Below, one piece after another: positions 6,910 through 10,001 of a stretch of 64,000 bases of DNA; the stretch's first letter is position 1, and every line of letters starts with the position of its first letter. The notes under the pieces are model-generated. The model saw nothing but the letters and a program-made list of their open reading frames with translations, did no database searches and was not told the origin of the DNA. Position numbers and translations under genes: made by a program. Source of the DNA: Ruegeria profundi (GTDB lineage Bacteria; Pseudomonadota; Alphaproteobacteria; Rhodobacterales; Rhodobacteraceae); contig NZ_LQBP01000007.1 in assembly GCF_001507545.1 (NCBI RefSeq), positions 124,001 to 188,000 on the forward strand, written 5' to 3'.

Positions 6910-8196
6910 ATGGCTCTGGACACCGACAGTGGCATCGCGTCGTACGAGGCACCGGAAAAAGACCTTTATGAGATGGGTGAGATCCCTCCGATGGGATATG
7001 TCCCGAAGCAAATGTATGCGTGGGCCATCCGCAAAGAGCGCCATGGCGAGCCAGATACCGCCATGCAGTTGGAAGTGGTCGACGTTCCCAAACTGGACAG
7101 CCACGAAGTGCTGGTTTTGGTGATGGCTGCTGGTGTGAACTATAACGGTGTCTGGGCGTCACTTGGCAAACCGATCAGCCCGTTTGACGGTCACGGACAG
7201 CCGTTCCACATCGCCGGGTCCGATGCGTCCGGTATCGTTTGGGCGGTGGGCGACAAGGTCAAGCGCTGGAAAGTAGGGGACGAGGTTGTCATTCATTGCA
7301 ATCAGGATGACGGCGATGACGAATACTGCAATGGCGGCGATCCGATGTATTCCCCAAGCCAGCGAATCTGGGGTTATGAAACACCGGACGGCTCGTTTGC
7401 TCAGTTCACCAACGTACAGGCCCAGCAGTTGATGCCGCGCCCAAAGCACCTGACCTGGGAAGAAAGCGCGTGCTACACCCTGACCCTGGCCACCGCATAC
7501 CGGATGTTGTTTGGGCATGAACCGCACGACCTGAAGCCGGGTCAGAATGTTCTGGTCTGGGGCGCGTCGGGTGGTTTGGGCTCGTACGCGATCCAGTTGA
7601 TCAATACCGCAGGTGCCAATGCGATCGGCGTGATCTCGGACGAAAGTAAACGCGATTTCGTCATGGGGCTTGGCGCCAAAGGCGTGATCAACCGTAAAGA
7701 CTTCAACTGCTGGGGGCAGCTGCCTACGGTGAACACTCCGGAGTATTCAGAGTGGTTCAAAGAGGCCCGCAAATTCGGCAAAGCCATCTGGGATATCACC
7801 GGCAAGGGTGTGAATGTCGATATGGTGTTTGAACACCCGGGCGAAAGCACATTCCCGGTTTCAACCTTCGTGGTGAAAAAGGGCGGTATGGTCGTGATCT
7901 GCGCTGGAACCACCGGCTATAACCTAACTTTTGACGTGCGCTATATGTGGATGCATCAAAAGCGTCTGCAAGGTTCTCATTTTGCGCATCTGAAACAAGC
8001 CGCAGCCGCGAACCAGTTGATGATCGAGCGTCGTCTTGATCCGTGCATGTCCGAGGTTTTCTCGTGGAAAGAGTTGCCCGAAGCGCATATGAAAATGATG
8101 CGAAACGAACACAAGCCCGGCAATATGTCGGTTCTGGTTCAGGCACCGCAGACCGGGATGCGTACCTTGGAAGAGGTGTTACACGCACGCGGTTGA
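6910..8196 (+). CDS. ccr: Crotonyl-CoA carboxylase/reductase
   Basis: The 428-residue product belongs to the medium-chain dehydrogenase superfamily. GVNYNGVW lies near residues 75-82 and the NADPH-binding WGASGGLGS near 217-225. The long N-terminus (YEMGEIPPMGYVPKQMYAW) is typical of Ccr. It reductively carboxylates crotonyl-CoA to ethylmalonyl-CoA using NADPH and CO2, two steps before Ecm. A GGGAGG ribosome-binding site precedes the ATG and a strong terminator follows. Downstream is the quorum-sensing locus, separated by about 200 bases. Confidence 0.97.
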   Translation: MALDTDSGIASYEAPEKDLYEMGEIPPMGYVPKQMYAWAIRKERHGEPDTAMQLEVVDVPKLDSHEVLVLVMAAGVNYNGVWASLGKPISPFDGHGQPFHIAGSDASGIVWAVGDKVKRWKVGDEVVIHCNQDDGDDEYCNGGDPMYSPSQRIWGYETPDGSFAQFTNVQAQQLMPRPKHLTWEESACYTLTLATAYRMLFGHEPHDLKPGQNVLVWGASGGLGSYAIQLINTAGANAIGVISDESKRDFVMGLGAKGVINRKDFNCWGQLPTVNTPEYSEWFKEARKFGKAIWDITGKGVNVDMVFEHPGESTFPVSTFVVKKGGMVVICAGTTGYNLTFDVRYMWMHQKRLQGSHFAHLKQAAAANQLMIERRLDPCMSEVFSWKELPEAHMKMMRNEHKPGNMSVLVQAPQTGMRTLEEVLHARG

Positions 8197-8216: not shown

Positions 8217-8260
8217 GACGCCCGCAAATCGTTACAACGGTTTGCGGGCGTCCTCTTTTT
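8217..8260 (+). terminator. Intrinsic terminator of ccr
   Basis: A perfect 12-bp stem (GACGCCCGCAAA with its complement) closes a 12-base loop that can pair further. It is followed by CTCTTTTT. It lies 20 bases after the ccr stop. Confidence 0.9.
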
Positions 8261-8367
8261 CGCGGGCAGGTTCAGGCTTTCTAAAGGGTTAGAAACGACA
8301 GCCCCGCTATTTTTGGGGAGTAGAAAGCAGTGAATATGCCGAAAATTATTGCTCATGCTATAGTTGT

Positions 8368-8384
8368 GTTAACCCTTCGTTAAC
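8368..8384. promoter_or_regulatory. Full CtrA-type binding site before the luxR unit
   Basis: The sequence is GTTAACCCTTCGTTAAC, which contains TTAA-N7-TTAA and the TTAAC-N5-GTTAAC form described for CtrA in Caulobacter and Rhodobacterales. It ends 18 bases before the ATG of the small ORF and covers the expected start of transcription from a TGCTATAGT extended -10-like element just upstream (about 8356-8364). In that geometry CtrA would repress; if a promoter lies further downstream it would activate. The site is seen; its binding is inferred. Confidence 0.6.
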
Positions 8385-8402
8385 CGTTTCGGAGAGACCT
8401 TG

Positions 8403-8624
8403 ATGGCGCAAAATGAGTGGATACTGGACGTGTTGTCGGACCTCAACGCCTTCGCCGTTGAGAACGGTTTGATCGCGCTGGCCGAGCAGTTGGATGACAC
8501 CAAACTGATCGCCGCGGCCGAGATCGCGTCCATGCAGGCTAAGGTGCGGACGCCAGCGGATGGGAACAAAACTAGATTTGAGCCAGGTTCTGGAGGAATT
8601 GGAAAACACCAGCACGCTGGATGA
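8403..8624 (+). CDS. Small protein overlapping the luxR start
   Basis: The 73-residue product begins MAQNEWILDVLSDLNAFAVE and forms predicted helices for about 50 residues, then a low-complexity tail where it overlaps luxR by 65 bases in another frame. A GGAGAG ribosome-binding site lies 8 bases before the ATG. Roseobacter luxR genes are, to my recollection, often preceded by such a small ORF, but no function is known to me. The overlap suggests translational coupling to luxR. The tail may be an artefact of the luxR frame. Confidence 0.55.
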   Translation: MAQNEWILDVLSDLNAFAVENGLIALAEQLDDTKLIAAAEIASMQAKVRTPADGNKTRFEPGSGGIGKHQHAG

Positions 8625-9279
8625 ACTCAGCGATGTTGCCGTTCGGCTGCGGGACAGCCTGAGGGTTGAACACCTCATTTATCATTGGGTCGATGGTGCC
8701 GGTGATCAATATGGCTATACGACTTATCCAGATGCTTGGGTCCAGCGTTATCTGGAAAGAAGCTATCATCGCATAGATCCGGTGATCGTGGGATGTTTTC
8801 AGCGGTTCCATCCGGTTGATTGGAAAAAACTAGACTGGTCTAGTAAACCGGCTAAGGCATTCCTGAAAGATGCGCAAAGCCACGGCGTCGGCAATCAGGG
8901 ATATTCGATCCCGATCCGGGGGCCTAACGGGCAATTTGCCTTATTCACCGTCAACCATTCCTGTGACGACAGCACATGGCAGGATTTTGTTGAAAGCCAC
9001 GGGCGTAGCCTGATTTTGATCGCGCATTATTTCAACCGAAAAGGATTGGAATTTGCGAGTGACCGGCAACCCGGTTCACCTCGGGGGCTTTCACCGCGCG
9101 AGGTGGACGCAATGACTTTGCTGGCGCTGGGCTACAGCCGGGCGCAGGTGGCGCATTCTCTGTCAATCTCCGAGCATACGCTGCGGGTGTATATTGAGGG
9201 CGCGCGCGCAAAACTCGGCGCCCAAAACACCACCCACGCCATCGCGACGGCACTTAGCCGGGGATTAATAGTGGTTTAA
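8560..9279 (+). CDS. luxR: LuxR-type acyl-homoserine-lactone receptor
   Basis: The 239-residue product has an N-terminal autoinducer-binding domain with the spaced residues of the family (YPDAWVQRYLERSYHRIDPV, VDWKKLDW). The C-terminal LuxR helix-turn-helix is LSPREVDAMTLLALGYSRAQ then SEHTLRVYIEGARAKLGA. It binds an acyl-homoserine lactone and controls transcription. luxI follows 83 bases downstream in the same direction. The ATG used has no good ribosome-binding site, fitting translation coupled to the overlapping small ORF. It resembles the SilR/RaiR class. Confidence 0.9.
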   Translation: MGTKLDLSQVLEELENTSTLDELSDVAVRLRDSLRVEHLIYHWVDGAGDQYGYTTYPDAWVQRYLERSYHRIDPVIVGCFQRFHPVDWKKLDWSSKPAKAFLKDAQSHGVGNQGYSIPIRGPNGQFALFTVNHSCDDSTWQDFVESHGRSLILIAHYFNRKGLEFASDRQPGSPRGLSPREVDAMTLLALGYSRAQVAHSLSISEHTLRVYIEGARAKLGAQNTTHAIATALSRGLIVV

Positions 9280-9323
9280 AGAGGCGCGCGGTCTCAGAAC
9301 GAGAATTTAACTATGCTTCCGTA

Positions 9324-9355
9324 CCCCTTTCGTTCCTGCAATGGGCGACAAGGGG
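9324..9355 (+). promoter_or_regulatory. luxI ribosome-binding site with upstream complement
   Basis: The luxI Shine-Dalgarno AAGGGG (9350-9355) has an exact complement CCCCTT at 9324-9329 within its leader. Pairing would bury the ribosome-binding site in a hairpin with a 20-base loop. The 6-bp stem is short, so this may be chance. Confidence 0.3.
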
Positions 9356-9362
9356 AAAAGTC

Positions 9363-10001
9363 ATGTTGCGCTATCTTTACGCCGACGAATTGTACAAATT
9401 TCCGGATTTGGCGGACGGGATGTTCCGGGACCGGGCAGACCAGTTCAAAACCCGGTTGGGCTGGGATGTTCACGTCGATGTACATGGGCAAGAGAAGGAC
9501 CAGTACGACGACCTGAACCCGTTATACGTCATTTGGGAAGAAGACGATGGCAGTCACGGCGGCTCGATGCGCGTCATGCCCACCACGGGTCCGGTCATGG
9601 TAAATGATGTGTTTGGGCATCTAACAGGGGGCCAGCCGATCTGCAGCCCGTTGATCTGGGAGGTTACGCGGTTCTGCCTCTCTCGCACGGCCAGCCCTCA
9701 TACGGCTGGCGCGATCATGTTGAGCGGGGGCGAGATGATGGAGGGGTTTGGCCTGACCCATATTGCCGGTGTCTTTGATGCGCGCATGATTCGGATTTAC
9801 CGCCTGATCGGATCGTCGCCGGACGTGCTGGGATCAGAAGGAAAAGGACGCGATCAGATTTCTGTTGGGCTGTGGCCCTATTCCGCCCAGGATTGCACCC
9901 GCGTGGCAGAGCGCGCGGGTATTCCGCGTGAGCTGTCCCGGCTGTGGTTTAAGACAGCTTTTGGCACCGGGCGGCAGCAAAGGTTCCCTCTTTCGGCGTG
10001 A
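9363..10001 (+). CDS. luxI: Acyl-homoserine-lactone synthase, LuxI family
   Basis: The 212-residue product carries the invariant LuxI residues at almost their canonical positions: Arg24, Phe28, Trp34, Asp46 and Asp49, Arg70, Glu100 and Arg103 (LIWEVTRF). It makes an acyl-homoserine lactone from S-adenosylmethionine and an acyl-ACP. The acyl chain cannot be read from sequence; roseobacters commonly make long chains. It is paired with luxR just upstream. It follows the crotonyl-CoA gene ccr by little more than 1 kb, which may reflect an old linkage rather than shared metabolism. Confidence 0.93.
   Translation: MLRYLYADELYKFPDLADGMFRDRADQFKTRLGWDVHVDVHGQEKDQYDDLNPLYVIWEEDDGSHGGSMRVMPTTGPVMVNDVFGHLTGGQPICSPLIWEVTRFCLSRTASPHTAGAIMLSGGEMMEGFGLTHIAGVFDARMIRIYRLIGSSPDVLGSEGKGRDQISVGLWPYSAQDCTRVAERAGIPRELSRLWFKTAFGTGRQQRFPLSA

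Follow-up and report, generated by a model that had tools for sequence, protein, structure and literature searches.

A conserved CtrA-type site at the predicted transcription start of a ccr-linked luxR-luxI unit in Ruegeria profundi

The window analysed here is a stretch of 64,000 nt of the Ruegeria profundi genome (GCF_001507545.1, contig NZ_LQBP01000007.1, positions 124,001-188,000, forward strand), which carries a luxR-luxI pair and several upstream elements (Table 1). The upstream neighbour is presumably ccr, a name that follows the B topology of PMC3824088, and it is set apart from the luxR unit by an intrinsic terminator. Downstream of luxRI lie a helicase gene and then a short-chain dehydrogenase (SDR) gene, which together with the upstream ccr is the arrangement of the B1 topology (Cude and Buchan, 2013; PMC3824088). 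In the available text of that paper the term ‘CtrA’ occurs in one reference title only and ‘small ORF’ nowhere, whereas a CtrA-type site and a small ORF are features of the locus described here. The nearest named relatives are Ruegeria, with the best LuxR match in R. denitrificans (90%).

The original prediction placed a full CtrA-type site at the promoter of the luxR-luxI unit. The promoter position was borne out, but the first reading frame of the unit is a conserved small ORF of 73 aa (from 8403) rather than luxR, which opens at 8560 and is overlapped out of frame. For the comparison among relatives, LuxR matches were obtained in 130 of 198 genomes of the family, and 110 loci were compared, one per genome, the 20 genomes left out having weaker, partial or contig-edge LuxR matches. 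Among these orthologous loci, ccr lies upstream in 100, luxI lies downstream in 101, and the small ORF has a tblastn match in 107. The small ORF follows the consensus MxNDWILDVLADLKxFAxxNGLxxLAEQLDDTxLVAAAEIAS and has one match in the genome; no match was found in Pfam with its first 57 aa or in NCBIfam with all 73 aa.

Table 1. Features in and around the luxR-luxI unit of R. profundi (positions in the window)
Feature	Position	Strand	Basis or remark
ccr (presumed crotonyl-CoA carboxylase/reductase), upstream neighbour	6910..8196	+	Pfam ADH_N/ADH_zinc_N
Intrinsic terminator behind ccr	8217..8260	+	16-pair stem 8217-8252, then T run
Conserved block upstream of the -10: inverted repeat CCCC-N9-GGGG, followed by GAAA...GTGAAT	8302..8337	+	Column conservation, 83 loci
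Extended -10, TGCTATAGT	8356..8364	+	TGnTAnnnT; predicted transcription start ~8371
CtrA-type full site GTTAACCCTTCGTTAAC, GTTAAC-N5-GTTAAC	8368..8384	+	TTAA-N7-TTAA core 8369-8383; TTAA-N7-TTAAC 8369-8384
GGAGAG, ribosome-binding-site-like	8391..8396	+	Read from sequence
Conserved 73-aa small ORF, overlaps luxR start out of frame	8403..8624	+	tblastn, consensus
luxR (autoinducer-binding and LuxR HTH domains)	8560..9279	+	Pfam PF03472, PF00196
Second TTAA-N7-TTAA full site, last luxR codons	9265..9279	+	TTA ATA GTG GTT TAA; 83 bases before luxI
TTAACT half-site before luxI	9307..9312	+	Read from sequence
luxI (acyl-homoserine-lactone synthase)	9363..10001	+	Pfam PF00765

The exact TTAAC-N5-GTTAAC match that had been predicted is present as GTTAACCCTTCGTTAAC and is the sole copy in the window. 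Only this exact form stands out, because matches with up to two mismatches number 6 against the 5.1 expected from shuffles. Genome-wide, TTAA-N7-TTAA is not enriched in R. profundi (4.26 Mb; 15 places against 44 for the reversed-pattern control) or in Phaeobacter inhibens (19 against 23), and it is enriched in Dinoroseobacter shibae (25 against 8). Other full sites of R. profundi stand before clpP, motB and one PAS-domain gene, which is taken here to be divL; several of the remaining ones lie inside reading frames or in front of genes not known to be linked to CtrA. CtrA sites have been predicted at clpP and divL of D. shibae, as given in the available part of Wang 2014 (PMC4046655). Since the motif is enriched neither in the window, with two mismatches, nor in the genome, it proves little by itself, and the case against chance is that of conservation.

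Exact TTAA-N7-TTAA occurs at -260 to -140 of luxR in 83 of the 110 loci, whereas 200 dinucleotide shuffles gave 0.6 on average and never more than 3; the count for the loci rises to 92 when one mismatch is tolerated at -230 to -160. Every other spacing from N2 to N17 is found in at most 4 of the 110 loci (N6 in 4). Of 80 named loci, which include 36 titled Ruegeria and share part of their genomes with the family set, 70 likewise keep the site. Absence from the same locus in relatives, which had been named as evidence against the prediction, is thus not what was found. In the column alignment of the 83 loci, the two TTAA cores are invariant, as the rows were chosen to be exact, and the 3' C stands at 0.93; these invariant bases coincide with the published CtrA consensus TTAA-N7-TTAAC. 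Between the cores, the four 3'-most bases of the seven show a preference for TTCG (0.64-0.76), and the three before them are more variable. Judged by its sequence, the site is of CtrA type with a fixed N7 spacing and is conserved beyond chance. As a side observation, one named record titled Nocardioides marinus (L187) holds a roseobacter-type luxR locus with 67% identity and seems to be mislabelled or contaminated.

The exact site is missing from 27 of the 110 loci. A quick LuxR tree of 110 rows was built after 6 of the 110 loci were dropped (frame unreadable) and 6 loci of the P. inhibens genus group were added. Rows that bear the site are found on both sides of the midpoint, and the exact-site state changes at least 21 times, or 12 times if one mismatch is allowed. 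The tree does not separate gain from loss; an old site with repeated loss is the simpler reading because one place and one spacing are seen throughout. The P. inhibens genome and the 6 others of its genus group have neither the site nor the small ORF (7/7). Named loci titled Phaeobacter are mixed, with the site in L177 and L203 and without it in L179, so that the loss applies to the genus group of P. inhibens and not to every Phaeobacter record. In the tree, every row with the site also has the small ORF (0 exceptions among 110 rows), and both are absent from 9; as a co-lost pair the two were not significant in an independent-pairs test (median p 1), the small ORF changing only twice on the tree.

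CtrA itself is encoded in R. profundi (G000:C1:87717), with 432 bits for NCBIfam NF045991 against a cut-off of 350; no solved structure matched it at E <= 1e-60. A CtrA match was obtained in 80 of 80 genomes tested (partial in G006). Loss of ctrA together with the site was considered, but all 27 genomes without the exact site are among those with a match.

The promoter context is conserved as well. In line with the original prediction that the site overlaps the expected start of transcription, the extended -10 TGCTATAGT (TGnTAnnnT) ends exactly 4 bases 5' of the site in 59 of the 83 loci. From the position of this -10, the start is predicted inside the site, the 5' base of which would be at about -2. 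The shorter TAnnnT is seen at that upstream spot in 61 of 83 loci, against at most 8 at any other upstream offset of the scan. The promoter does not appear to need the site: of 24 loci with the small ORF and no exact site, 13 still carry the extended -10. Around most other CtrA sites, matches were too few for a common -10 position to be read (25/25 D. shibae, 15/19 P. inhibens and 13/15 own-genome sites), and the layout at luxR2 is unique among 50 oriented sites of D. shibae, for which mapped transcription starts were not found in the literature searched. A leftward minus-strand promoter, TTAACA-16-AATAAT, was considered and set aside since its -10 falls in unconserved columns; another candidate minus-strand -10 is found in 36 of 83 loci and shares the TA of the forward element. 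Further upstream, the conserved block lies about 35-70 bases before the predicted start and is a candidate activator operator, perhaps for LuxR. Its right part, TGGGGAGNNGAAANNNGYGAAT, occurs exactly only once in the genome, at luxR; a second copy was sought, and the 12 others obtained have 3 mismatches and are at the level of the control.

The region before luxI contains further CtrA-like elements. The second full site spans the luxR stop and codes for Leu-Ile-Val-Val-stop by means of rare codons. Of 36 loci (L125-L160, including 33 with Ruegeria in the title), 35 use TTA for this Leu and 33 use ATA for this Ile, against 28 TTA in 860 Leu codons and 45 ATA in 456 Ile codons over the rest of those luxR genes. 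A full site over the luxR stop occurs in 39 of 78 named loci (2 of the 80 being left out) and in only 7 of the 110 family loci, which makes it mainly a feature of the Ruegeria lineage. In addition, a TTAAC[CT] half-site is found at -70 to -30 of luxI in 55 of 101 loci, the 9 loci without a luxI match being left out, against a mean of 1.2 and a maximum of 4 in dinucleotide shuffles.

Orthologous loci of two species with published mutants bear on the function of the site. The D. shibae genome (G035) was assigned by a 100% match to pDSHI04. That of P. inhibens (G200) was assigned through part of the DSM 17395 plasmid pPGA1_262, which it matches at 99% (next genome 91%); its strain is not necessarily DSM 17395 itself. 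The luxR2I2 locus of D. shibae (L103) is orthologous and ccr-linked, and it has the small ORF, the extended -10 and one TTAA-N7-TTAA in the same place as in R. profundi. Its layout, GTGCTATAGTTGTG-TTAATGTTTCGTTAA-CC, is that of the R. profundi promoter, and its full site precedes luxR2 by 188 bases. TTAACC is present within 140 bases before luxI2, but there is no full site over the luxR2 stop as there is over the luxR stop of R. profundi. In the available text of Wang 2014, CtrA sites are reported at luxR2, and luxR2I2 is lower in the ctrA, cckA and chpT mutants while luxR1I1 is unaffected (PMC4046655). That text counts two perfect sites at luxR2, whereas one exact full site was found here within 450 bases of luxR; it is suspected that the two are one palindrome counted on both strands. 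The pgaRI1 unit of P. inhibens is likewise an orthologous, ccr-linked luxRI, but it has neither the site nor the small ORF and, in the accessible part of a 2025 preprint, it is not CtrA-responsive, the homologue being down in D. shibae relay mutants and unchanged in those of P. inhibens (PMC11974857). P. inhibens keeps TTAACC before luxI; a half-site is therefore not enough for a CtrA response. The presence of the full site in D. shibae and Ruegeria and its absence from the P. inhibens group constitute a natural experiment, and the site tracks the CtrA response, with a positive sign, in the two species with mutant data. This contrast is of one species each, whose media and platforms were not the same, and what the P. 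inhibens group lacks is the whole leader including the small ORF, not the site alone.

The predicted site on the start of the unit, kept in most relatives compared, suggests that quorum sensing is probably under the control of the cell-cycle and motility network in this Ruegeria. Direct CtrA control of the luxR-luxI unit is likely; as to its sign, the data from the orthologues favour activation and the anatomy favours repression. The reading preferred here, with a probability of about one half, is that GTTAACCCTTCGTTAAC would be a genuine CtrA operator of long standing for the ccr-linked luxR-luxI unit, acting directly and with a net positive effect. Net positive control is favoured because luxR2I2 falls in the D. 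shibae mutants and pgaRI1, without the site, is unchanged. Phosphorylated CtrA would bind TTAA-N7-TTAA where transcription of the small ORF, luxR and luxI begins, and the CckA-ChpT-CtrA relay would thereby set the quorum-sensing output, the sign in R. profundi being put as positive after D. shibae. In Ruegeria, the second full site before luxI would probably add to this control. Activation from a site on the start point, which is not the classical activator position, might come about in several ways, the relief of another repressor being one option. A more ambitious form of the same idea is that CtrA has exerted direct positive control over ccr-linked luxRI since the Rhodobacteraceae ancestor, from the unusual activating position on the transcription start, with the half-site, the second site of Ruegeria and the 73-aa leader protein as parts of the switch, the last because the P. 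inhibens group lacks both it and the site. In this full form the idea is unlikely.

The geometry at the site contradicts the sign reported from D. shibae, and it is on geometry that the predicted repression had been based. In Caulobacter, activation goes with full sites near -35 and repression with sites over -10, as stated in the available parts of PMC4287350 and PMC6180460, and the site described here does not stand near -35. At CtrA-repressed promoters of Caulobacter the CtrA site is at the core promoter, as predicted for R. profundi (Zhou et al., 2015; PMC4287350), although the repressor motifs given in the text at hand are mostly half-sites over -10 and the R. profundi motif is a full site just 3' of it. 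Hence the anatomy alone supports repression: CtrA~P over the start point would block RNA polymerase at the extended -10 and limit luxR-luxI, and the fall in D. shibae, where the effect of CtrA on luxR2I2 could be indirect, would have another route. The 4-base distance to a -10 that is kept without the exact site fits such a block, and in Caulobacter the full site at -14 of ctrA P3 and the half-sites over -10 accompany repression (PMC4287350, available part). However, the predicted 5' base at about -2 is further down than in those examples, and luxR2I2 of D. shibae, which has the same layout, falls in all three mutants. Moreover, the unchanged pgaRI1 of P. inhibens would require the indirect positive route to be specific to D. 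shibae. Repression thus fits the geometry and is nevertheless doubtful.

A promoter switch of the kind known from Caulobacter ctrA would accommodate both the geometry and the expression seen in D. shibae. There, in the portion of PMC4287350 available, one full site has its 5' base at -14 of P3 and at -39 of P2; by analogy, the full site of R. profundi would repress the upstream promoter and activate a downstream one near the small ORF, reading mainly luxR. A -10 at the spacing that this needs (TAnnnT some 27 bases downstream of the site's first T, as in the activated type of Caulobacter) is however found in only 1 of the 83 loci, which makes the switch improbable. It is still less probable that the palindrome is the operator of another regulator, such as LuxR or one of the Fnr/Dnr type. 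GTTAAC-N5-GTTAAC is also an inverted repeat, and a Dnr/Fnr site shares the TTAAC half (PMC7232146). Against this, the quoted Dnr site is TTAAC-N4-GTCAA (PMC7232146), the spacing here is fixed at the CtrA value of N7 between the TTAA cores with N6 in only 4 loci, and the D. shibae papers assign the motif to CtrA (PMC4046655, in its available part; PMC7232146). The least probable explanation is a motif kept for the 5' leader RNA or otherwise without a DNA-binding regulator, CtrA having no direct part; the motif would fall in the first bases of the predicted transcript and the TTCG lean goes beyond the CtrA consensus, but the invariant bases are the CtrA half-sites and, of the seven bases separating these, the first three are poorly conserved.

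CtrA sites before luxRI are of a kind already published, the D. shibae orthologue included. The CtrA-to-quorum-sensing arm of D. shibae was reported in 2014, and the same source, in its available part, gives CtrA sites at luxRI units of R. pomeroyi (two) and R. litoralis (one) and regards the luxRI sites as scattered and as having arisen independently several times (PMC4046655). For ccr-linked luxRI, the larger locus set suggests otherwise. In the usual roseobacter picture, quorum sensing stands above CtrA. SsaRI of KLH11 acts above the relay and a feedback was suspected, as the available text has it (PMC3692519), which fits a loop; the KLH11 orthologue of the unit described here is locus L156, either ssaRI or ssbRI. 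Because quorum sensing acts on ctrA in roseobacters (SsaRI of KLH11, LuxI1 of D. shibae), a CtrA site on the luxR unit would close such a loop, as had been proposed; a direct and conserved site would make the reverse arm an old and general component of the circuit, and not something invented sporadically. In the literature searched, in which subscription papers are thinly covered, no report was found that the site has a fixed family-wide position at the transcription start, nor any of the small ORF or of the rare-codon site before luxI. The two published sites of R. pomeroyi could include the rare-codon site.

Apart from the CtrA-like elements, the luxI leader carries an inverted repeat, CCCCTT...AAGGGG, at 9324-9355, and a similar one is seen by eye in most of the 36 loci L125-L160. 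Its right arm includes an AAGGGG that resembles the luxI ribosome site. The repeat could be an operator, or it could mask translation.
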